Below are positions 599 through 12,458 of a DNA stretch of 12,458 nt, piece by piece. Below the pieces are notes generated by a model that worked only from the letters and a program-made list of their open reading frames with translations, had not been told where the DNA came from and ran no database searches. The DNA comes from Oscillospiraceae bacterium (GTDB lineage: Bacteria; Bacillota; Clostridia; Oscillospirales; Acutalibacteraceae): positions 1 through 12,458 of the forward strand of contig CADBOL010000106.1 in NCBI GenBank assembly GCA_902796295.1, written 5' to 3'. The position numbers and the translations under genes are program-made. Within the stretch, counting starts at the first letter, position 1. Every line of letters starts with the position of its first letter.

Positions 599-2065
599 GT
601 GGACAGAATAAGCACCTGCGGTTTATACTTCACCGATGAGGCGGGGCGTATCCGCATTTTCAACGGGATGAATATTGACGATAAGATGATCGGCGATAAA
701 TTCCGTTATAATCTTGATGAGGAGTTTTTTTCAAAATACAGGGCAAACGGTTTCAATCTGATACGTCTCGCAGTGCAGTGGGCGAATATTGAGCCGGAGC
801 CCGGGAAATACAGCGTGAGCTATCTTGCTTCTATAGATAATATTTTCCGCATTGCGGAGAAATACGGAGTTTATATCCTGCTCGATATGCATCAGGATTT
901 ATATTCCGGTTTCGGAGGTGTCGGCGGAGGAGACGGCGCACCCGCCTGGGCCTGTCTTACGGACGGTGTTGAGCCGAAACCGTATAAATTTGTATGGGCG
1001 GAGCTTTATGTTTTCGGCAAGTGGGTGCATAACTGTTTTGACCACTTCTGGAATAACGATGAAGTTCAGGGCAGGGGGCTGCAGGACCGCTATGCCGATT
1101 TATGGCAGATGATGGCAGAGAGATACGGTGACAGCCCGGCTCTTTTCGGCTATGATCTGCTGAATGAACCCGCTCCGGGCTCGGGAGCAAAAAAGATGAT
1201 TGCCCGGCTTGCTGCAAGCGGAACGCGCCGGGTTTTGCTGAGCAAAAAAATCAAGCGCCTTGATATAATCGGATCGCTCATTAAAAAAGACCCGAAAAAG
1301 CTTCTCGACAGCATACCCGGTACGGTTATCAGGGATATAATGGAAAAAATCGATCCCTATGAAGAAGCTTTTGATTACAAGTATTATTCTCCGTTTCTCA
1401 ATAAAATGGCGGCGGCAATCCGGAGCGTTACACCAAACGGTATACTTATGATTGAGCAGCCTTTTCTCTGTAACGGAGGCGTGAAGCTTTCCGTTCCGCC
1501 CATAACCGTCAACGGGGAGCGTGAGCCGCTTCAGTGTTTCGGGCCTCACGCTTACGATATGACGGTCGATACTCCGCTCTATAAATATGCCAACGCAAAC
1601 CGCGTGAAGGCGTTTTTCGGAGAGATGCGCAAATCGCAGCTTCGTCTCAATATGCCCGCAGTTGTCGGCGAATGGGGCGGATGCAGCGACAACAAAGATA
1701 CTTCCTGGTTCGGTCACGCGAATGAGCTGCTCGATTATTTTGACGGCAATCATTGGGGTCAGCTTTACTGGGATTATCACGGCGATGATATGGATGCTCC
1801 GCTGATGCAGATGCTCAGCCGCACCTGCCCCGTGGCAGTTGCGGGCAGGATAAAGAGATACGGCAGGAGCGAAGACAGAAAAACATATTATCTCGATTAC
1901 GAATCCGTCTCTCAGGGTGAGAGTGAAATCTATATCCATGCGCCGGCAAAGGTTGAGTGTGACGGCGCGATGAGGATTATCGAGGAATATCCGAACGGTG
2001 CGCGGCTCATAGGCGTTTCCTGCGGAGCCGGCGCTCACAGTGTATCGGTTTTTATTGAGAATTAA
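599..2065 (+). CDS. Endoglycoceramidase-like glycoside hydrolase family 5 protein, cytoplasmic
   Basis: A 488-residue retaining beta-glycosidase with a clan-A (beta/alpha)8 barrel. The sequence reads like the endoglycoceramidase branch of GH5: LLDMHQDLYS, then GDGAPAWA, then FDHFWNN, then GYDLLNEPAPG. Glu190 in the NEP motif is the expected acid/base and Glu358 in VVGEWGG the expected nucleophile. A beta-rich C-terminal domain follows from about residue 400. Known endoglycoceramidases cut the bond between oligosaccharide and ceramide, but related members cleave other glucosides, so the substrate is open. Start: GTG 599 is chosen because the promoter ends at 541, it has a Shine-Dalgarno-like site, and the conserved domain begins about 20 residues later; ATG 566 is the alternative. 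Neither start gives a signal peptide, so the enzyme should act in the cytoplasm, presumably on what the downstream GPH carrier brings in (22-base gap, same operon). Confidence 0.85.
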   Translation: MDRISTCGLYFTDEAGRIRIFNGMNIDDKMIGDKFRYNLDEEFFSKYRANGFNLIRLAVQWANIEPEPGKYSVSYLASIDNIFRIAEKYGVYILLDMHQDLYSGFGGVGGGDGAPAWACLTDGVEPKPYKFVWAELYVFGKWVHNCFDHFWNNDEVQGRGLQDRYADLWQMMAERYGDSPALFGYDLLNEPAPGSGAKKMIARLAASGTRRVLLSKKIKRLDIIGSLIKKDPKKLLDSIPGTVIRDIMEKIDPYEEAFDYKYYSPFLNKMAAAIRSVTPNGILMIEQPFLCNGGVKLSVPPITVNGEREPLQCFGPHAYDMTVDTPLYKYANANRVKAFFGEMRKSQLRLNMPAVVGEWGGCSDNKDTSWFGHANELLDYFDGNHWGQLYWDYHGDDMDAPLMQMLSRTCPVAVAGRIKRYGRSEDRKTYYLDYESVSQGESEIYIHAPAKVECDGAMRIIEEYPNGARLIGVSCGAGAHSVSVFIEN

Positions 2066-2087
2066 TCGCTGCAGAGAGGTAAATCAG

Positions 2088-4283
2088 ATGGAATTACTTA
2101 ATAAAGGCATAGGAATGCTCAAGGATGTAAAAACTTACTGGAAAAAGCCGCCCGAAGGGAAGTATATGACCTTCAGGGAGATTTTCGCTTACTCTGTGGG
2201 CGGTGTGGGCGCTTACTCGATTTTCACTATGGCTCAGGCGCTTCTGCTCTCAACGACGAATGTTATAATCGGCAATACGATAGGAATTCAGCCGATGCAT
2301 ATGTATGTGATGTATCTCATTTCGGTCATCACGAATATCCCTCTGACTATGGTCAGGGCCAATATGGTTGATAACGTGAAATACAAAGAGGGCAAATACC
2401 GTCCGTATCTGCTGAGGATGGGCATTCCGACAGTCGCAATTTCCATGCTCTTTGTGTTTACCCCGTATTCAAAGGTCAGCTATCTTATCCGCTGTATTCT
2501 TATATTCATTTATAATTTCGGCCTGCAGTTTTTCTATAATTTTTTCTATGACGCTTATGAAAATCTGATTCACGTGCTCTCGCCGAATTCCCAGGAGCGT
2601 ACAAACGCCACGGCTATCAAGAGCATGATTTACTCTCTTTCGCCCACCATAACAAATTTCGTTACCCCACTCATAGCAAACAAGGTCGCAAACGGCAATA
2701 TGTATGATTTGAGAGTTTATCAGTGGCTCTATCCCTTCATTGCCGTGACCGGTGTTGCTCTTATTATTCTCGTCTATGCGAGGACAGAGGAAAAAATCGT
2801 TATCGCCAAGACGCACCCGATGAAGATAAAATTCATGGATGCCCTTCGCGAGGTTGCGAAGAATAAATATTTCTGGATTATTTCTCTCGCGGGTTGGCTC
2901 GGCTTTCTCGAAACCTGCACTTATGTAATCCTCCAGTGGCTTTATAACTATGCCCATCTCTGCACTGCGGAGCAGTATTCATTTATCACTCTCATCCGCG
3001 GAACCGCTTACAGCTGGGGAATGATTTTAGCCCCGTTCGCAATAAAAAGATGGGGCAAGAAAAAAGTGCTCATAGTGACCAATCTCTTTAATATTGGCTT
3101 TCTCGCTCTCGTTTATCCTCTCATGGGGTCTATATGGACCGTCCTGTTGTGTATGTATATGAATTCGGTTGCAGATTCCTTCATACTTGTTCTCAACCCC
3201 GCAATCCAGGCGGATATCCGCGATTATCAGCATTATAAGAGCGGCGAGAGAATAGACGGAATGTTCGGCGCGGTTGCCATGATAGGATCGTTTGTCACTA
3301 TGGCGACAAGCTCCGTCTTGCCCGCCGTCTATGAAAAATACGGCATCTTCTCCGGCAACGGATATGAGAATATGTATGACGTTCTCTATGATACAAACGT
3401 GCTTTACAGGCTTGTGGGCGTGCTGGTAATACTCTCGGCTGTAGGAGCTGCGCTGAATGTTATCCCTTATTTCTTTTATGACCTGACCGAAACCAAACAA
3501 AAGGCAATAATCAGGATCCTTAAAATCCGCGCAATGTTTGAGGATTACGGCAACGGAGTGCTGACGGATGAAGATATGCGCAGCACTATGGATATGATAA
3601 GCGACGCCAAAGAAAAAATCGCAGGCGGCAGAGTTGATACGGAGAAGCTGAAAAAAGAAAAGGCGCCGCGCTCCGAAATCAAGAGCGCCGCGGCTGTAAA
3701 TGAAGAATATGAGATTTCCGTTTCCGTTATGGAGGAGCTCGAAAGATTCCTTCAGCCGGAATCCGTCGAGAGACTGAAATGGGCTGAGGAAATCAGAGAC
3801 AAAGGTATTGCAGGAATACTCGCAATTGATGACAGTTCTCTCGCCAAAGCGAAAACTCTGCCTTCGGAAACAAAAGAGGAGCGCGCTGTACGTAAGCAGG
3901 CGGTCGCGGACGCAAAACTCGGTATCCGCTCAAGAAACGCGGCGCGCAAATACTACCCGCAGGGTATAGCTGTCTTTGATGAAGCCGCGCTTAACTCTCT
4001 TTATGAGGAAGAAAAGGCGCTTGCCGGGAAAAAGACCGAGCTGCTGAAAGCCAAGGCGGATAAAAAAGAGATTGCAGATGTTTCCGCTCAAATGAAGACT
4101 CTCTCAAAGCAAATCAAGGAAATGCACGAGGAATATCAGCATTATATCGAGAGCACAAAGGTTGTGAAAGAAGCGGAGAAATTCATCACACAGGCCGAGA
4201 ATTACTCAAGATTCGGTGAGCTTGACAGCCTTTATGTGACGTCTTCTGCTGATGACAGCCTTGAATCCGGCGGGACAGAATAA
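2088..4283 (+). CDS. GPH-family (MelB-like) glycoside:cation symporter with a long C-terminal cytoplasmic extension
   Basis: A 731-residue membrane carrier. Residues 1-465 form the usual multi-helix MFS-type transporter of the glycoside-pentoside-hexuronide family. The signature after the second helix pair is seen as NMVDNVKYKEGKYRPYLL (Asp95 and the K-Y-R-P end), the counterpart of the family's N-x-x-D-x-x-x-G-R-x-R-P loop. Typical GPH proteins are 450-500 residues long. This one adds about 265 hydrophilic, charged residues, with a likely coiled coil at about 640-710 rich in Lys, Glu and Ala. The extension resembles neither the EIIA-like tail of LacS nor any domain I recognise. ATG 2088 is chosen over an upstream GTG at 2040, which lies inside the GH5 gene, because AGAGAGG precedes it at 2073-2079. 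The gaps of 22 bases from GH5 and 18 bases to the phosphoesterase indicate one transcript. It probably imports the glycoside cleaved by the GH5 enzyme. Confidence 0.85.
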   Translation: MELLNKGIGMLKDVKTYWKKPPEGKYMTFREIFAYSVGGVGAYSIFTMAQALLLSTTNVIIGNTIGIQPMHMYVMYLISVITNIPLTMVRANMVDNVKYKEGKYRPYLLRMGIPTVAISMLFVFTPYSKVSYLIRCILIFIYNFGLQFFYNFFYDAYENLIHVLSPNSQERTNATAIKSMIYSLSPTITNFVTPLIANKVANGNMYDLRVYQWLYPFIAVTGVALIILVYARTEEKIVIAKTHPMKIKFMDALREVAKNKYFWIISLAGWLGFLETCTYVILQWLYNYAHLCTAEQYSFITLIRGTAYSWGMILAPFAIKRWGKKKVLIVTNLFNIGFLALVYPLMGSIWTVLLCMYMNSVADSFILVLNPAIQADIRDYQHYKSGERIDGMFGAVAMIGSFVTMATSSVLPAVYEKYGIFSGNGYENMYDVLYDTNVLYRLVGVLVILSAVGAALNVIPYFFYDLTETKQKAIIRILKIRAMFEDYGNGVLTDEDMRSTMDMISDAKEKIAGGRVDTEKLKKEKAPRSEIKSAAAVNEEYEISVSVMEELERFLQPESVERLKWAEEIRDKGIAGILAIDDSSLAKAKTLPSETKEERAVRKQAVADAKLGIRSRNAARKYYPQGIAVFDEAALNSLYEEEKALAGKKTELLKAKADKKEIADVSAQMKTLSKQIKEMHEEYQHYIESTKVVKEAEKFITQAENYSRFGELDSLYVTSSADDSLESGGTE

Positions 4284-4301: not shown

Positions 4302-5981
4302 ATGAAAATGGCCAAAAAAGCAATATCCGTCATACTCGCGATTATTATGGCTGCAGGCGCGGCAGCTGTTTCTCTCACCGCTTTTGCGGATGATGAAACG
4401 GTAAAATTTGCCGTGGGAACGGATATACATGTTGAAAACGACAAAACAGAGATTGATGTTAATTACCCCGAAAACGAGCTTTACTTTCAGGCATCCGGAA
4501 CGGGCAATCTATATGACCAGGCAGCCGCGCTGACAAAGGATTTCCTTTATAACAGCGCTGCCGAGGGCGCGGAGTTTATCCTTGTTCCCGGTGATCTGAC
4601 AAGGGGCGGCAAAGAGGTACAGCACAGGTGTGTCGCCTCGGTTTTTGCGGAATTTGAGAAGGAAACCGGAGTGCAGGTCTATACCATCCCCGGTAACCAT
4701 GACTATTATGATTCATCCACCACTCCCGCAGCCTTCAGAGAGTATTATGCCGATTTCGGTTATAACACGGCTCTTGCCGCCGATGAGGCGACCGCCTCAT
4801 ATACAGCGGATCTCTGCGGCAAATACCGCCTTATCGCGGTTGATTCAAATGACCCGGGTGAAGACGGAGACGGTATTACAGACAGCCTGCTTGCCTGGAT
4901 TGAGGAGCAGACATCTCAGGCTCATAAGGATGGCAAAGAAATTATATATATGATGCATCATTCTTTGCTTGAGCATCTGTATCTAGGCAAAACTCTCATG
5001 AAGGATTTTATAGTGAGAAACAGCGAAGAGCTTGCCGAAAAATTCACCGGATGGGGAATCCGCTATGTTTTCAGCGGCCATGAGCACGGCAATGATATTT
5101 CATCATTTACGGGAAAAAACGGAGCTGTTGTTTATGATGTCCTTACCACATCGCTCTCTTCCTATCCGCTTGAATACAGATTTGTCACGATGTCGGATAA
5201 AGGCGCAGACATAAAGATGAGAAGAATCGATAACTGCGATCTCGAAAGCCTCATTGACGGCTATACCGATGAGCAGAAGGCGATGCTTTCATCCGATTAT
5301 CAGGGGTATGCATACGGTCTTTTCAAGTTTGCGATTGAGAAGAAAATTCTGAAATATGTCAAGCCCGATTTCATAAAGGGAAAGCTCAAGGTTAACGACG
5401 GGCCGCTCGCGGATACCGTTGACAATCTTTTCAATGCGGTCGGCGAGGCCCTGACGATGCCCCTCTATGAGGATGACGGCGGAGACGTGAGTGTTGAAAA
5501 ACTTGCCGCTTCAAAAGGCGTGACAATTCCGGAGTCCGGTTACGGCTCTCTGATTGAGCTTGCCGCGGCGATGGTTGCCATGCATTATCACGGCGATGAA
5601 AACCTTGTGCCCGGAGAAACACCGGAGTGCGAGATTTTAGTGAAAGGTCTCAATACCGGTCTTCAGTATATTCTCACAAAAACAGGCCGCAGCGGTCTGA
5701 ATACGCTTCTGAGCGTAATCGGAACTCAGGTAGATACAGATGAGCTCAGCCCGCTCTTCAGCGCCGTCAGTTTCGGTAAGGAAGAGTCATATGCAGTCGC
5801 CGAGCGCGTACTCTATCCGCTTCTCGAAAAATTTGCCGTTGATTCGGGCCTCCCGGACAGAGATGCTTTCCTGCCTGCCGGGCCGGATTCTCCGGAGGAG
5901 ACGGCTCCTTTGAGCTTCTTCGGGAGAATAATTGAGTTCATAAAGCGCTTGTTTAATTCCGTTTTCGGATTTTTGAAATGA
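4302..5981 (+). CDS. Secreted calcineurin-like metallophosphoesterase
   Basis: A 559-residue exported phosphoesterase. Residues 1-29 form a signal peptide (AxKK start, hydrophobic core, cleavage expected after TAFA, before DDE). The dinuclear-metal motifs of the calcineurin-like superfamily are all present in order: GTDIH (Asp41, His43), VPGD (Asp98), IPGNHD (Asn132, His133), MHH (His219/220) and SGHEH (His260, His262). The catalytic domain covers about residues 33-290. A helical region without known motifs follows, and the protein ends in a hydrophobic amphipathic tail, FGRIIEFIKRLFNSVFGFLK. The substrate cannot be named; the family includes nucleotidases, phosphodiesterases and phospholipid-type phosphatases. 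The start has GAGGGA at 4291-4296. It is the last gene of the GH5-GPH operon, so it may strip phosphate from the same substrate outside the membrane; that link rests on position alone. Confidence 0.88.
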   Translation: MKMAKKAISVILAIIMAAGAAAVSLTAFADDETVKFAVGTDIHVENDKTEIDVNYPENELYFQASGTGNLYDQAAALTKDFLYNSAAEGAEFILVPGDLTRGGKEVQHRCVASVFAEFEKETGVQVYTIPGNHDYYDSSTTPAAFREYYADFGYNTALAADEATASYTADLCGKYRLIAVDSNDPGEDGDGITDSLLAWIEEQTSQAHKDGKEIIYMMHHSLLEHLYLGKTLMKDFIVRNSEELAEKFTGWGIRYVFSGHEHGNDISSFTGKNGAVVYDVLTTSLSSYPLEYRFVTMSDKGADIKMRRIDNCDLESLIDGYTDEQKAMLSSDYQGYAYGLFKFAIEKKILKYVKPDFIKGKLKVNDGPLADTVDNLFNAVGEALTMPLYEDDGGDVSVEKLAASKGVTIPESGYGSLIELAAAMVAMHYHGDENLVPGETPECEILVKGLNTGLQYILTKTGRSGLNTLLSVIGTQVDTDELSPLFSAVSFGKEESYAVAERVLYPLLEKFAVDSGLPDRDAFLPAGPDSPEETAPLSFFGRIIEFIKRLFNSVFGFLK

Positions 5982-5998
5982 TTATCTTTTAAGAATAA

Positions 5999-6030
5999 CG
6001 GGTCTGCCCTGATTCGGGCAGACCCGTTTT
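5999..6030 (+). terminator. Strong Rho-independent terminator at the end of the operon
   Basis: A perfect 11-bp GC-rich stem (5999-6009 with 6016-6026), a 6-base TGATTC loop, and TTTT at 6027-6030. It sits between two convergent genes, 17 bases after the phosphoesterase stop. On the minus strand the stem is followed by TTATTCTT, so it could also stop the HTH-desulfoferrodoxin transcript, less efficiently. Confidence 0.9.
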
Positions 6031-6036
6031 ATCGCT

Positions 6037-6621
6037 TTACGGCTTTATATAAAAAAGCCCGTGGCGGTTGCAGTAAGCGTAAATGTATTTAATACGGTTA
6101 ATTTTGAATCTCGCCTCTGCGCCGCTCTGGGGATAAAGCTTGACAAACTGTATTCTGTCATCCGATACCGCCGCCAGGAAGGAGATATAATGCTCTTTTT
6201 CCATCGGATGGCTGACCGTGACATAGTATTCATCTTCAACAGTCTGCACGGAAACTGAGTGCTCTTCATCCGCGTCTTCGGCCTCGAGGGGCGGCAGTGT
6301 TATTCCGCAGCAGCTTATCACCGCTTCACCTGTAGCGTGTATTACATTCGAGCAGACCGGGCATACATAAAATCTGCTTTTTGCAATATTTGAGGAGCGG
6401 TTCAGATTGCGTATATCCTCGCCCGAGAGCAATTCAATAACCGAAATTCCGAGTGCTCCGGCAAGCGGCTCGATGAGGCTGATATCGGGGAATCCCTGCC
6501 CCGTTTCCCATTTGCTGACCGCTTTCGCGCTGACATAGATTTTGCCTGCCAGCTCTTCCTGAGTCATTTTTTTGCTTTCGCGCAGCCGTTTTATGACTGC
6601 TCCGGTTACATATTTATCCAT
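6037..6621 (-). CDS. XRE-type HTH regulator fused to a desulfoferrodoxin (superoxide reductase-like) module
   Basis: A 194-residue fusion. Residues 5-65 are a Cro/C1-type helix-turn-helix (MTQEELAGKIYVSAKAVSKW, then GFPDISLIEPLAGALGIS). Residues 85-112 carry the desulforedoxin-like rubredoxin iron site: Cys87-x2-Cys90 and the adjacent pair Cys104-Cys105 before Gly. Residues 119-192 match the superoxide reductase iron centre: His121, then SHPMEKEHYI (His138, His144), and YCNRHGLF (Cys184, His187), which is all five ligands of the Fe(His)4Cys site. The E-K-H-x-P motif of active superoxide reductases reads E-E-H-S-V here, so the catalytic Lys is replaced by Glu. I infer a cytoplasmic redox, iron or superoxide sensor that binds DNA rather than a simple detoxifying enzyme. 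The start has an AAGGAGG site at 6629-6635. It lies 68 bases after the GH42-like gene on the same strand and may be partly read through from it. Confidence 0.9.
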   Translation of the reverse strand: MDKYVTGAVIKRLRESKKMTQEELAGKIYVSAKAVSKWETGQGFPDISLIEPLAGALGISVIELLSGEDIRNLNRSSNIAKSRFYVCPVCSNVIHATGEAVISCCGITLPPLEAEDADEEHSVSVQTVEDEYYVTVSHPMEKEHYISFLAAVSDDRIQFVKLYPQSGAEARFKINRIKYIYAYCNRHGLFYIKP

Positions 6622-6661
6622 AGTTTTTCCTCCTTACATCCGGAGTTTAGCACAGGCGGAT

Positions 6662-6686
6662 AAAAAACACCACCCACGTATCGTGG
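6662..6686 (-). terminator. Weak possible terminator or attenuator after the GH42-like gene
   Basis: On the minus strand, CCACG-ATA-CGTGG (6686-6674) is followed, after GTGGTG, by TTTTTT (6667-6662). The stem is only 5 bp and the T run is 6 bases away from it, so termination would be partial at best. Read-through into the HTH-desulfoferrodoxin gene is plausible. Confidence 0.3.
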
Positions 6687-6689
6687 AGT

Positions 6690-8600
6690 CTATTGCTTTG
6701 TTATTTCAAACAGCTTTGTTTCATTTTCCTTCATCGGTATGATTAGGGTATCGGTTTCGGTTATTATTCCGTTATCCGTCAGCAGTTCGCGGCAGGAATA
6801 AACCGCGCCGAGCTTAATCTTCTTTTCTCCCGGTGTTACCGAGTGAATGGCAATATAATCCGTGCCGGTATAAACTATGTCATCCGAATCGCAGTATATA
6901 TGCGCTCCCTGAGATTCGCAGAAGGCGCGCAGCTCCCGGGCTGTGAAATCTTTCTTTATTTCGGATGGCGCCAGGTATCTGATATTGTTCTTTTTGCAGT
7001 AATTGAGCGCGTTTTCCATTCCGGCGGTTCTGACACATGATGTGAAGATTATTGCCTTGTAGTTTTTACAGACCGCCTCAAAATCGCCGATATCATAGGA
7101 GTCGTAAGACGCGCCAAGATATCCCAAAGGTTTTCTCATATTGAAAGAGGCGTTTCTCAGAGCGCAGTCGGTCATGTATCTGTATGAGCTCTCATCTGAA
7201 AAAACGGCGATTTCGGCTTTGCTCTTTCTAACGTCTTTCTTGAGCGAGCCGGCGTATATTTCTCTCATATTCTTCATTTCCGAGATAATGTCGGGGTCAT
7301 TGTACCAGCCGCCCCACATATCAAACCACCAGAAGCCGTTGCCTTTTATCAGCTGACGGCTGAATGATTTGCGTATCATGCTGATTGACTGCTCTTTGCT
7401 GCCGGGTCCCAGCCATATCTGCGAGGAGTATTTATTGTCTCTGTCATATTCCGGCGCAGCTTCGGAAAGGAGCTTTGTCAGATGCGTGCGGATATCGCAT
7501 TCCTGCATGCAGATTTTGCCGTGAAGTTTTACGGAGTCGGCGGGATACATCTCTGTCCAGTCAGTATTCATATCTCTTGTGCCGATATATGAATTCGGCG
7601 AGCAGATAAAATCTATATTTTCGCACTCAAGTATTGTTCTGAGCGCGTGAGTGCCGTGTAGGGGAGAGGTAACCTCAAGAGAATATCCGTAAAATGTGCC
7701 GATAACGAGATTCCTGCCCGTTGCCTCTTTTGCAACTGAGCTGAAACAGCAGATGTCATCTGCGACGGCGTTTGAGGCGAATTCAAGATATTTTGCAAGG
7801 TGTTCGCTTTTGTGATAAGGGCCCTTGCCGTTAAGCAGTGAGAGATCGGGAAGGCCTCTGAAACCGCAGCCGGGGTAATATTTATCAAGATAATCGTTAA
7901 AAGCTTTTTCTGCGTTTTTGCAGTAACCGGCATTCATATCAAAATGAAACCATTCCTCGGTGTTTCCGCCCGCGAGCTGATAGCCGGCGATGTGTGAGGC
8001 GTAGCTGCTCTCATTTATGTGCTCAATCACACTGCGCAGCATATCCGAGGCGGTCTCACGGTATTTATCCGAAAATAGAGATTCACGCTTGCCGGTTCCG
8101 TCAAGGCATTCTTTGTTTTCTTCCGTCCACCACAAAGGCATCGACATATTGATTCTCGGGAAAATGTAAGCTTGCGGGCAGGCGTCGATAATTCTTTTTA
8201 TTGAGGAGTCAAGAGAGGAATAATCGGGTTCTCCTTTTTTATCGAATATCCCGCCGTGAAACGGTTTACAGTAATCGTTTGAGTTGATCCACCTGCCGGC
8301 AAAAAGCACGGGTACGGAAAACAGATCATACCCCGCGCCGGCAAACAGTGTGTAATCATTGTATTCCTCAAGATATGTCATATAAGCCGCCGCCGGAAAA
8401 GGTTCTCCGTTTATAAAAAGAGACGGCACCCCACCGCAATCCGCAGCGCACGAATAGATACCCCTGTATTTTTCCATGTTTCTTTCCCCGGTTTCATAAT
8501 CAGTCACGAAGTGTGCCGGATTTTCGGGACGGTAAAAATTGAATGCTGCCCCGAAAAGCGAAATAACGGCAAGCAAAAAACCGATAATCCTGTTTATCAT
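6690..8600 (-). CDS. GH42-like clan-A glycoside hydrolase with N-terminal export/anchor segment
   Basis: A 636-residue protein. Residues 3-23 are hydrophobic after a short positive start (MINRIIGFLLAVISLFGAA), giving a signal peptide or an uncleaved membrane anchor; the cleavage site is not clear-cut. The body looks like a (beta/alpha)8 barrel related to beta-galactosidase family 42. A strand-4 motif AGGNTEEW carries the probable acid/base Glu215 or Glu216. The segment CENIDFICSPNSY precedes KICMQECDIRTH, whose Glu367 is the probable nucleophile, and a Trp-rich strand FWWFDMWGGWYNDP follows. From about residue 465 (AEIAVFSDESSYRYM) comes a trimerisation-like alpha/beta domain of the GH42 type and then a short beta domain. 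GH42 itself is an imperfect match, so the exact family and substrate are open. At least 13 cysteines fall in the first 370 residues, unusual for an exported Bacillota protein. A GGAGG site lies 9 bases before the ATG. The promoter and a cre-like operator lie just upstream. Confidence 0.75.
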   Translation of the reverse strand: MINRIIGFLLAVISLFGAAFNFYRPENPAHFVTDYETGERNMEKYRGIYSCAADCGGVPSLFINGEPFPAAAYMTYLEEYNDYTLFAGAGYDLFSVPVLFAGRWINSNDYCKPFHGGIFDKKGEPDYSSLDSSIKRIIDACPQAYIFPRINMSMPLWWTEENKECLDGTGKRESLFSDKYRETASDMLRSVIEHINESSYASHIAGYQLAGGNTEEWFHFDMNAGYCKNAEKAFNDYLDKYYPGCGFRGLPDLSLLNGKGPYHKSEHLAKYLEFASNAVADDICCFSSVAKEATGRNLVIGTFYGYSLEVTSPLHGTHALRTILECENIDFICSPNSYIGTRDMNTDWTEMYPADSVKLHGKICMQECDIRTHLTKLLSEAAPEYDRDNKYSSQIWLGPGSKEQSISMIRKSFSRQLIKGNGFWWFDMWGGWYNDPDIISEMKNMREIYAGSLKKDVRKSKAEIAVFSDESSYRYMTDCALRNASFNMRKPLGYLGASYDSYDIGDFEAVCKNYKAIIFTSCVRTAGMENALNYCKKNNIRYLAPSEIKKDFTARELRAFCESQGAHIYCDSDDIVYTGTDYIAIHSVTPGEKKIKLGAVYSCRELLTDNGIITETDTLIIPMKENETKLFEITKQ

Positions 8601-8868: not shown

Positions 8869-8912
8869 AAAGAAGTAAAATGCGAATATTATTTTCAGGA
8901 GGTAAAACCGAA

Positions 8913-11900
8913 ATGAAAAGAATCATCAGTATTACAATGGCGCTGTTGCTTACGGTTTCTGCGCTGACGATCGGCATTATGGGCTTAACCGCATCGGCAG
9001 ACGGCAGCACGGGTAATAACTTCCTTCTTTCTCATCCGGGTACCGCAAATCTCAATGATCAGACAAGCAACCCGTACAGCCAGCCCAGAGGGCAGAATTT
9101 TTCTCTCTCAACCATGAACGAGCTGTACTATTATGCTTCATACGACAGTAAGTATTATTCCCGCTTGTTTGATGAGATGTCAACAAGCGCCACCAAGTCG
9201 GGCGATTATTACTGGATGAAACATATCAATATGCATAATTCAAACGGCTTTGATGCCGCCCCGTCTTCCGGTGACAATTATCTCTCAAAATACAGGCTCA
9301 GCTATGTTCAGGCTGTTGGATTCGATCCTCTCGGAAACGGAAGGAAAGACCATATTGCTTTTATAGGTTACTCCAATTACAAGTCCGGAAACAGCTGGCT
9401 TTATTATACCTATATTGTGGTTCAGGATCTCAGAGCTAACTCGAGTGGCTCAGACGGCAATCGCCGGATGTATGCATACGAGCTTGACAGATCCTCATGG
9501 GCACGTAACCGTGACCTTCCCTATTATCTGGGCTCGGCATATTTTGCCATTGCTGCCGGAGACTTTGACGCTGACGGAAAAGACACATTGGTTGCCTACT
9601 GCCCCTCGGATACCAACAGTGTCAAAGTATCCGAAATCAATTTCAACGGCTCAGCGTTTACCTGCAGTACGCTGAAAAAAATTGAAGATTTGAGGTCAGA
9701 CACAGCCGATCTGCTTACCGGCCGCGAATCAAACTGGGAATTCAAGCCGACAGTCAGCTTTGCTGTCGGAGACTTTGACGCTGACGGAATTGACAATCTT
9801 GCCATTTCCACCGGTTTCGGAAACCCCGCATCATATGATAATGACAGTTCAACAGACGGACTCTCAAAAGACAACACAAGCGTCAAAAAGTTTGTCACGA
9901 ATGTCAGTATAATGAATTATGATAAGAACACAAGTACCTGGAGTATAGCAAGTCAGGATTATATGTATAACAGAGGGGCGCTTATCAGAAGCGATAATGA
10001 TTCTAAAACATATCGTTATGATGTAATGCATATGGGCGCCATCACTGCAGGTGATATAAACAACAACGGTTATGATGATATTATAGCCGTCGGATTCACA
10101 TCATATTCTGATGACAATGATCACTGCAGAGTGAAGGAATGGAATAATTCACCAAGAACAGATGTTTATGATCTCGGAGACATAGACAAGACACAATATG
10201 CTTATTCCGTTATCTCCTATGATTCGGCTAATAAGGTGTATCAGAGAACCGCGCTCGGCAAAATCAAAATGAATAATTTTGAAGCACATAATTTCAAAGA
10301 CGATTCCAACTCTATGTGGCCTCAGATTCAGATAGCGGCCGCCTACACAAACGGGCATTCAAATCCTGCCGAAATATTTATAAACGGAGAAATCTTCAAC
10401 GGGAAAAGCGGAGAATTGATAACCCAGTATAAACCGCAGATTTTCACCCAGACATTCACTACACTGATGGACGGCGGTACAAACGCAGATATGAGTTTCA
10501 CCGCTCAGGTGGCTGCGGGCAATTTTGACAATAATAATGCAGGGCGCGAACAGTTTGCCTATACAATTGCGTTTAAAGAAAATAATGCTAGAGACTATGC
10601 GATGTATCTGGGCTATGTCGGAGGCTGTGAATTTGACGATGATATTCAGAACGGTAAGGTTGTTGACTACGGTCAGCTTGTCAATTACGGCAATTCCGAC
10701 ATAAGAGATAAGGGCGACGGCAGCGCCAGCGGAAATAAAGTTCATAACACAGATAAAGCGAACGCATCCCAGATTATGTATAACAACGGTGACCACTGGA
10801 CTGATGACAGCGGCAAATGTCTTAACGGCGTAATCTGCGCTGTGGACTGGGACAGCGACGGCCTTATCGGCAAATTCAGTAAGCACGGATACATTACTTC
10901 CGACCCCACGCCTGTTGCGGTTCTTCAGGTTTCCCCTTATTTTGATTCTCTTATGAAGGCCGGCGTTTACGGCACTGAACAGAGCGAAGCCGGCACAACA
11001 TATAAAATCGGATACAGCTTTGAAAAGACCACTTCAAAAGGCAACAGCGTTTCTTTCGGAGTCGGAGTCACCGGAGAAATAGAATTGAAGCACGTCAAGA
11101 TGAGCGCTGAGATCGGTTATTCTCTCGACTGGAATGAAACATTTGAAAAATCGGTTCAAAAAGAATACGAAAAAGAATTTACGGTGAATGAGGATTCAGT
11201 GCTTGTAACCATAGTCCCGGTCGATATATATTCATATGACGTATATAATCCGCAGACCGGAAGATATATTTCAGACGGATACACGGTCAGGACTCCGTCC
11301 AGCCCGGTTTATCAGGTTATGACCATCGCTGAGTATAACGCCGCAGTGGCAGAGTATAACGCTTATATTGACAGCTCAAATGCTCCCGGAGCTCAAAAAG
11401 CAAACAAACTCAAACAGATACAATACGGTACCTTAATCAGTGACAGCGTTCAGCTTCCCGCAAATGCCGAGGGCAATCCTTATGTTTATGCGAAGTGGAC
11501 AACAGAGAATTCAAATAAGATGGATTTGCTCAGCGACCCCATTAATATGGGCTACGCCGGAGCCAGTATATCTGCCAGTTATACTTATTCAACAGGAAAC
11601 ACACACAGCACAGAAATGGCTCACGGATTCAATTTCAGCTTCACCATTATGTTTGGCGGAGAGGTGGCCAATGATGTAGGACTTTGGGGCGGCGGATATG
11701 TAAACCTCGACTATTCGGAGTCAAAGGGAAACAGTGTATCAATCAGCAACTCTGAGGGATGCACCGGAGAAGTTGTCGATCCCAAAGCCAATGAACAGGT
11801 TTCCTATAATGAATTGCAAAAATATGCTTTCCAGTGGCGCCTGGCTCAGTGGACTTCAAAGCTTGTACAAGGCACCGATGATATTACTCCCGTAGTCGGA

Positions 11901-12458
11901 TATGCGCTGAGTAATGTTATATCACCGTCAGGTCCTCCCAAAGATCTTGAAGCGGTTTATAATTACAATGAACAGAATGCAGCTAATTCCTCCATCACTC
12001 TGACATGGAAAAAGCCCGACCCGATTCCTTACGGTCCCGGAGTCAAAGGCTACAATGTTTACGATGACGGAGAAAAGGTCAACGGTCAGATTGTCCTGCC
12101 CGGAAACTCCGACACCGTCACTTATACAATAGGCAGTGTTGAATACGGCAGTAAGCATCACTTTACCGTAAAAGCCATAACCCAAGGCACAGAAGCACTC
12201 AGTACTCCTTCCAATGAGGCGGTGCTCGGCTGGGTAAGCAACGCTGTAAGCATTGAAACCATAGTTAAGGATACAAGTTATGTGTCAACTGACGGGCTTA
12301 CAGACAGATATATTATCACTCTCTCCGACGGCACCGAATCAGATTTCTTTGTCAAAAACGGTAAAGACGGCGCAAACGGCACAAGCGTAAGCTCAGGTTA
12401 TATCAATAATGACGGAAATCTCGTTATCACACTTTCCGACGGAAACGTGCTTACACTC
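8913..12458 (+). CDS. Giant secreted multidomain protein (FG-GAP/VCBS-like repeats, beta-rich region, FN3-like, SDG/NGKDG repeats), 3' end outside window
   Basis: ATG 8913 follows AGGAGG at 8897-8902. The frame is open for 1182 codons to the last base, with no stop. Residues 1-29 are a signal peptide (KR start, TASA before DGS). Residues about 130-660 carry FG-GAP/VCBS-like repeats with Asp-rich loops, such as AAGDFDADGKD (near 217), AVGDFDADGID (near 287), TAGDINNNGYDD (near 381), AAGNFDNNN (near 537) and DWDSDG (near 645). This suggests a calcium-binding beta-propeller. Residues about 697-1000 are Ser/Thr/Gly-rich and beta-prone, with SKGNSVS at 708 and 937; they vaguely recall aerolysin/ETX-type pore formers, but I cannot assign them. 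An FN3-like domain (about 1005-1106) is followed by TLSDGT, VKNGKDGANG and TLSDGN repeats, as found in surface proteins of gut anaerobes. Any anchor would lie beyond the edge. A surface adhesin or toxin-like role is inferred. Confidence 0.85.
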   Translation, partial: MKRIISITMALLLTVSALTIGIMGLTASADGSTGNNFLLSHPGTANLNDQTSNPYSQPRGQNFSLSTMNELYYYASYDSKYYSRLFDEMSTSATKSGDYYWMKHINMHNSNGFDAAPSSGDNYLSKYRLSYVQAVGFDPLGNGRKDHIAFIGYSNYKSGNSWLYYTYIVVQDLRANSSGSDGNRRMYAYELDRSSWARNRDLPYYLGSAYFAIAAGDFDADGKDTLVAYCPSDTNSVKVSEINFNGSAFTCSTLKKIEDLRSDTADLLTGRESNWEFKPTVSFAVGDFDADGIDNLAISTGFGNPASYDNDSSTDGLSKDNTSVKKFVTNVSIMNYDKNTSTWSIASQDYMYNRGALIRSDNDSKTYRYDVMHMGAITAGDINNNGYDDIIAVGFTSYSDDNDHCRVKEWNNSPRTDVYDLGDIDKTQYAYSVISYDSANKVYQRTALGKIKMNNFEAHNFKDDSNSMWPQIQIAAAYTNGHSNPAEIFINGEIFNGKSGELITQYKPQIFTQTFTTLMDGGTNADMSFTAQVAAGNFDNNNAGREQFAYTIAFKENNARDYAMYLGYVGGCEFDDDIQNGKVVDYGQLVNYGNSDIRDKGDGSASGNKVHNTDKANASQIMYNNGDHWTDDSGKCLNGVICAVDWDSDGLIGKFSKHGYITSDPTPVAVLQVSPYFDSLMKAGVYGTEQSEAGTTYKIGYSFEKTTSKGNSVSFGVGVTGEIELKHVKMSAEIGYSLDWNETFEKSVQKEYEKEFTVNEDSVLVTIVPVDIYSYDVYNPQTGRYISDGYTVRTPSSPVYQVMTIAEYNAAVAEYNAYIDSSNAPGAQKANKLKQIQYGTLISDSVQLPANAEGNPYVYAKWTTENSNKMDLLSDPINMGYAGASISASYTYSTGNTHSTEMAHGFNFSFTIMFGGEVANDVGLWGGGYVNLDYSESKGNSVSISNSEGCTGEVVDPKANEQVSYNELQKYAFQWRLAQWTSKLVQGTDDITPVVGYALSNVISPSGPPKDLEAVYNYNEQNAANSSITLTWKKPDPIPYGPGVKGYNVYDDGEKVNGQIVLPGNSDTVTYTIGSVEYGSKHHFTVKAITQGTEALSTPSNEAVLGWVSNAVSIETIVKDTSYVSTDGLTDRYIITLSDGTESDFFVKNGKDGANGTSVSSGYINNDGNLVITLSDGNVLTL
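9550..9789 (+). repeat. Near-identical 30-base direct repeat encoding two FG-GAP-like calcium loops
   Basis: Bases 9550-9579 and 9760-9789 agree at 29 of 30 positions. They lie exactly 210 bases (70 codons) apart and in frame. Both encode the A-x-GDFDADG loop. The DNA identity exceeds what the protein motif alone requires, suggesting recent duplication or gene conversion between propeller blades. Confidence 0.85.

Follow-up and report, generated by a model that had tools for sequence, protein, structure and literature searches.

A helix-turn-helix protein with a superoxide reductase fold and a conserved operator-like element at its own predicted promoter

Introduction

PerR, Fur, IscR and SoxR are one-component metal or redox regulators. 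To our knowledge, the superoxide reductase (SOR) fold does not serve as the sensor in any characterised regulator. A class of 19 proteins was named HTH-Dx-SOR in SORGOdb in 2011 (PMC3116461), and these proteins share with the one analyzed here an identical domain order, with an N-terminal helix-turn-helix (HTH), a desulforedoxin (Dx) and a SOR domain; the parts of that article available to us give no function, operator or regulon for the class. Such a fusion was proposed for the DNA studied here by an earlier sequence-only reading, and it is real, but its architecture is not new and belongs to the class named in SORGOdb. A literature search found no functional study of HTH-Dx-SOR proteins. TrtA of Treponema denticola was considered as a characterised member and discarded because, as described in the part of PMC12724145 available to us, it has 104 amino acids and no Dx-SOR module.

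The present work deals with an HTH-Dx-SOR gene found in a stretch of 12,458 nucleotides from an Oscillospiraceae bacterium (GCA_902796295.1, contig CADBOL010000106.1; hereafter, the window), with its relatives and with the DNA upstream of them.

Results

The gene of the window and its product

The features of the locus are collected in Table 1. The protein joins an XRE helix-turn-helix to desulforedoxin and SOR folds, and all nine metal ligands (those of the Cys4 site and of the His4Cys centre II) are present. The HTH, the four-Cys site, the five centre-II ligands and an E-E-H motif where canonical enzymes have E-K-H had all been read from ORF 6037-6621(-), and each of them was confirmed. The TIGR00320 equivalog score of the protein is 54.6 bits, under the cut-off of 146.9 bits. 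A convergent gene (4302-5981) faces the HTH-Dx-SOR gene across a likely terminator, recognised by eye, and because of this separation the gene looks monocistronic.

Table 1. Features of the HTH-Dx-SOR locus in window coordinates
Feature	Position	Strand	Remarks
HTH-Dx-SOR coding sequence	6037..6621	-	194 aa
HTH_3 helix-turn-helix, aa 10-64	6430..6594	-	HTH_3 45.5 bits; fold matches that of P22 c2 repressor
Desulforedoxin-type Cys4 site, aa 87-105: Cys87, 90, 104, 105	6307..6363	-	Sequence
SOR (centre II) domain, aa 118-194	6040..6270	-	His121, His138, His144, Cys184, His187; Glu120 replaces Lys
Operator-like near-palindrome TCCACGATACGTGGGTGG	6670..6687	-	Sole 0-1 mismatch site of the genome; element in 79/81 genes
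Predicted -35 hexamer TGGTGT, weak, overlaps operator	6667..6672	-	Placed by consensus geometry
Predicted -10 hexamer TAAACT	6644..6649	-	17-bp spacer as in 73/79 genes
Ribosome-binding site AGGAGG	6629..6634	-	Sequence
Inverted repeat and T run, likely terminator	5997..6034		By eye

Elsewhere in the window, a 636-aa protein encoded at 6690-8600 (-) has no Pfam or NCBIfam match, and the gene upstream in one relative (L063) encodes a C-terminus that by eye is similar to it. A GH5-type glycosidase gene (437-2065) precedes the gene of a GPH-type sugar symporter (2040-4283, +), in which MFS_2 covers aa 77-484 and a long charged C-terminal extension runs to aa 747. The frame at 8880-12458 (+) begins with a signal-like sequence, spans at least 1193 aa and is open at the window end.

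Distribution and relation to canonical desulfoferrodoxins

Protein searches gave at least 8000 matches to the window protein, a figure that counts matches and not SOR-bearing proteins, and the 120 matches listed all show 76-99% identity over at least 91% of its length. Within an even sample of the phylum, formed by 398 genomes with the window's own genome included, the fusion was detected in 35 (E <= 1e-20), in four of which (G361, G310, G138 and G246) the match is partial, lacking the HTH or broken. Named HTH-Dx-SOR records come from rumen and gut Clostridia, including Butyrivibrio, Roseburia and Faecalibacterium, and from Treponema.

The window's genome also encodes a canonical desulfoferrodoxin of 126 aa with the motif EKHVP (L001, 1384-1764), and a 211-aa gene, rubrerythrin-like by eye, ends 16 bases before it. 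A strong PF01880 match, which we read as a canonical SOR, was found in 21 of the 35 fusion genomes, the window's among them, and the other 14 lack it. A tree built on the Dx-SOR part places 18 canonical rows on one side of a single branch with 100/100 support and 34 fusion-type rows on the other. Two copies devoid of HTH, L060 (G361:C14) and L240 (G298:C14), are nested among the fusions, a placement that suggests loss of the HTH there.

Variation in the metal ligands and in the E-K-H motif

Over 110 aligned members of the fusion family, Cys87, Cys90, Cys104, His138, His144 and Cys184 are found without exception (110/110), whereas Cys105 is kept in 93 and replaced by His in 17, His121 is kept in 101, and His187 in 86, the rest having Asp (22), Gly (1) or Ser (1). 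The five centre-II ligands are complete in 78 members and lost in part in 32, and both sites are complete in 76. The intact five-ligand centre claimed by the sequence-only reading is thus true of the window protein but not of the family as a whole, where His121 and His187 drift. All nine ligands appear in every row of 121 close relatives, window included, so the drift appears with distance. Asp or Ser stands at position 187 in 15 of the 17 rows that have His105, a co-occurrence that may be due to shared ancestry.

Alignment of the E-K-H position across the fusions, a check that the same reading had proposed, showed that just 2 of the 110 members (L075 and L131) have Lys at position 120 and that 55 have Glu at position 119, against EKH in 18 of 18 canonical desulfoferrodoxins obtained from 21 loci; an EKH tally of 28/31 loci was set aside, its search pattern having favoured EKH. 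The missing Lys is in itself no proof of lost activity. Active SOR without this Lys exists, although a literature search for one found nothing. According to the title of reference B112 in PMC3116461, a SOR without the conserved Glu still reduces superoxide.

A conserved element overlapping the promoter

The stretches preceding 80 named genes and the window gene (81 in total) were searched for a common element. As a result, CTCYACGNNRCGTRGGTNG was detected with at least 12 of 16 positions matched in 79 of them, the window included, the two failures being L128, whose record starts 34 bases before the gene, and L136. Base-shuffled upstream stretches, in which base content but not dinucleotides was kept, reached this level in 51 of 1600 cases. 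In 59 of the 79 genes its end is located 47-51 bases ahead of the gene start. The element overlaps the -35 box of the predicted promoter in all 79, with TNGYNN at the expected -35 position. A -10 of the form T[AT]nnnT follows after a 17-bp spacer in 73/79 genes and after 16-18 bp in 78/79, being preceded by TGn in 44/79, and the -35 is weak, with three or fewer of six matches in 59/79.

Among 29 loci of the phylum, both HTH clades counted together, inspection by eye places the element or a variant of it directly upstream in 23; in the distant WERG clade the variant is TCYACGGAGCGTTNRTTG, at the same place of the promoter. In L038, L054 and L061 the element is located further up, ahead of the gene upstream in line. 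A search of conserved upstream DNA for an operator had been recommended by the sequence-only reading, and its claim that the protein binds DNA is indirectly supported by an operator-like element at the gene's own promoter that differs with the HTH clade. This conserved, putative operator overlapping the predicted -35 is new for the HTH-Dx-SOR class.

Association of the sites with the gene

The exact form TCYACGNNGCGTAGGTNG has 6 sites in 6 of the 398 genomes, and exact TCYACGGAGCGTTNRTTG has 10 sites in 7. The 13 genomes with a strict pattern are all among the 35 that carry the gene, with none in the 363 others; the window's own site matches neither form. Twelve of these 16 strict sites lie directly before the fusion gene, one heads the operon that contains it (G226) and three precede FMN_red-type genes. 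Because the patterns were derived from such promoters, hits at the gene itself are expected, and the informative part of this search at sequence level is the 0/363 elsewhere together with the second sites. When TCYACGNNNCGTRGGT was searched in 50 other genomes, 31 of them yielded a total of 33 hits, and the remaining 19 have none because their own site deviates. Thirty of the hits precede an HTH-Dx-SOR gene (27 checked at the gene, 2 matched by eye and 1 before a second HTH-Dx-SOR gene) and 3 are inside other reading frames. The second gene (L316, G434:C22) is a paralogue in the same genome with an exact operator of its own.

In the window's own genome, the window site is the sole one with 0 or 1 mismatch, and no broad stress regulon is visible; this genome is 79% complete, so targets may be missing.

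Candidate targets and rejected sites

Second exact sites were found in G203 and G307, of one genus, and in G155, of another family, in all cases directly before genes for flavodoxin-fold proteins of 223-229 aa and with promoters that also show the 17-bp geometry. Two of these three proteins, as well as the one of G226, match FMN_red and Flavodoxin_2, and the third resembles them by eye. The operator of G226 lies at the head of a pair formed by the FMN_red-type gene and the HTH-Dx-SOR gene. A one-mismatch variant is located 2.9-4.3 kb upstream of HTH-Dx-SOR in G050, G335 and G321, before in-line genes that end in it and include one for an AAA_5 protein; at the operon-head site L218, no -10 follows after 17 bp. 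Weaker cases are the one-mismatch, well-spaced sites before an HTH-less Dx-SOR gene (L240) and before the gene of a CAT-family protein (L220).

Other hits were less informative. One scan gave seven non-self hits, namely the three before FMN_red-type genes, the CAT-like L220, L214 and L224 with unfit spacing, and L215 at a contig end. Another gave twelve non-self one-mismatch hits, with control counts as high or higher; of the eight inspected, a set without L238, L241, L242 and L246, only L240 was kept as possible. In 30 close relatives, TCYACKNNNCGTRGGTNG with 0-1 mismatch gave 74 hits, which by our reading include 30 at the HTH-Dx-SOR gene, against 207 for a reversed control pattern. From the 44 other hits, 39 were fetched, 36 of which fall inside long mechanical ORFs and 3 are intergenic, one of these (L291) having a fitting -10 and no recognisable target; the 5 remaining belong to G410, G411 and G424, and one extra fetched stretch (L280) is the gene itself. 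Control of the canonical desulfoferrodoxin found no support, as none of the 16 strict sites precedes one.

Neighbourhood and carriage

No conserved neighbour gene was found in the 67 of 80 loci that were parsed, the largest other neighbour cluster being present at 8 loci, in scattered positions; the 13 loci dropped are those in which the ORF filter lost the gene itself. In 19 of 60 loci a co-directional gene begins no more than 100 bases downstream, and in 11 of 64 one ends no more than 60 bases upstream; judging from this spacing, some copies may be in operons. In the subclade of L248 (G050), L249 (G335), L251 (G316), L252 (G351) and L218 (G321), HTH-Dx-SOR is the last gene of a run that also encodes an AAA_5 protein and a small protein or two, one of which was scanned and has no Pfam match; in L054 and L061, Pro replaces His121.

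Loci L239, L244 and L245 of G328 show the same one-mismatch site with identical surroundings near three contig ends, and are probably a repeated element. Carriage of the gene by mobile elements was considered and discarded. A record labelled Bacteriophage sp. (MT835563.1, L315) has an HTH-Dx-SOR relative and the operator, with neighbours that look chromosomal by eye. Two records with HTH-Dx-SOR relatives were found in the plasmid set, one of them of chromosome size.

Discussion

The account that we favour, and hold to be rather probable, is that HTH-Dx-SOR proteins are self-regulating one-component metal or redox switches that act as dimers on their own promoter, sometimes also on that of an FMN-reductase-type gene or of the operon to which they belong. 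Comparison provides the architecture, the ligands, the upstream element, the promoter geometry, the clade variant and the very small candidate regulon, and from them we infer binding by this protein, its dimeric state, sensing and the identity of the metal. Two HTHs carried by a dimeric Dx-SOR body would read the near-palindrome CTCYACGNNRCGTRGGT, centred about 44 bp before the transcription start and overlapping the gene's own -35, and binding there would set the amount of the protein; in some relatives it would also control an FMN-reductase-type flavoprotein or its own operon. The Dx-SOR module, with its metal-binding fold kept and Glu-Lys mostly lost, would most likely be the metal- or redox-sensing and dimer-forming part, so that metal occupancy or oxidation at one of its two sites would shift the HTHs. 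The protein could repress by covering the -35 or activate a weak promoter as cI does, and both fit because the site adjoins a weak -35. The invariant residues suggest that selection keeps metal binding more than turnover, and the drift of His121 and His187 means that no single centre-II sensing chemistry fits all members. A broader picture, to which we give somewhat less than even weight, is that the SOR fold became the sensing half of a transcription factor. In the window's lineage it would run the smallest possible circuit, with a single good operator in each genome, located at its own promoter, and the sensor would double as the effector, dosing itself as a buffer of metal or superoxide. 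The two metal sites would have been re-tuned jointly in one branch, that of the rows with His105 and Asp or Ser at 187, and a flavin reductase would take part in some lineages.

For a pure sensor it is odd that no target besides the own gene is visible in the window's genome. As the only good site there is at the own promoter, no output can be seen other than the amount of the protein itself, and this keeps alive a different reading, in which a working SOR or metal buffer regulates its own synthesis, with the FMN-reductase-type protein as a possible electron donor. Trigger enzymes of this kind are a known concept. Such a role would agree with the 78/110 members that keep all five centre-II ligands, with the 14/35 fusion genomes devoid of a strong canonical SOR match, and with the persistence of at least two HTH-less copies (L060 and L240, the latter behind an operator variant), so that the module may have a role that needs no DNA binding. 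We nevertheless judge it unlikely, though worth keeping in view, because Glu119 is present in just 55/110 members, Lys120 in 2/110 and ligands are lost in 32/110, against EKH in 18/18 canonical proteins, and because 21/35 fusion genomes, the window's too, have a canonical-looking SOR in addition.

The ligand losses could also mean that the module is only a zinc-stabilised dimer-former, with DNA binding following some other signal or none. Cys3His sites are typical of zinc, and Cys105 is His in 17/110 members; moreover, the element stays while the ligands drift, 20 of 21 loci with non-standard ligands (within L063-L142) passing the element test. The presence of His138, His144 and Cys184 in 110/110 members goes beyond what a dead site needs, however, and makes this reading improbable. 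Least credible of all, to a degree that leaves it hardly any weight, is that the element serves some other transcription factor or is part of an RNA hairpin. Read as RNA, the window site could form a short hairpin that follows the upstream gene, but strict patterns are found in 0/363 genomes without the gene and the element varies with the HTH clade. A hairpin or terminator in RNA was in fact discarded as its meaning, since the site is upstream of the predicted -10, outside the predicted transcript, and 25/79 sites have C3/A13 or A3/A13, which breaks the pairing of a stem.

If the self-regulating switch is correct, an old enzyme fold would seem to have been taken over, in an anaerobe, for a switch whose main task is to set its own level. 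The putative operator, its position in the promoter and the very small candidate regulon make HTH-Dx-SOR directly testable as a regulator, and the natural variants of the SOR centre within the family, altered at one or two ligands, form a series with which catalysis could be separated from sensing. We found no literature on the function of this fusion, although it is present in 35/398 sampled genomes of the phylum, in named Clostridia of the gut and rumen, and in Treponema.

Compared with desulfoferrodoxin, the class I two-iron SOR (1dfx, 2ji1 and the copy of the window's own genome), the fusion has the fold and the metal ligands in common, but it adds an HTH, mostly loses E-K-H, falls across the 100/100 branch and scores below the TIGR00320 cut-off. 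It differs from XRE and P22 c2-type repressors in that the partner of its HTH is a metal-binding SOR fold. With PerR, Fur, IscR and SoxR it would share its logic, the metal or redox state setting DNA binding, although the folds are different.
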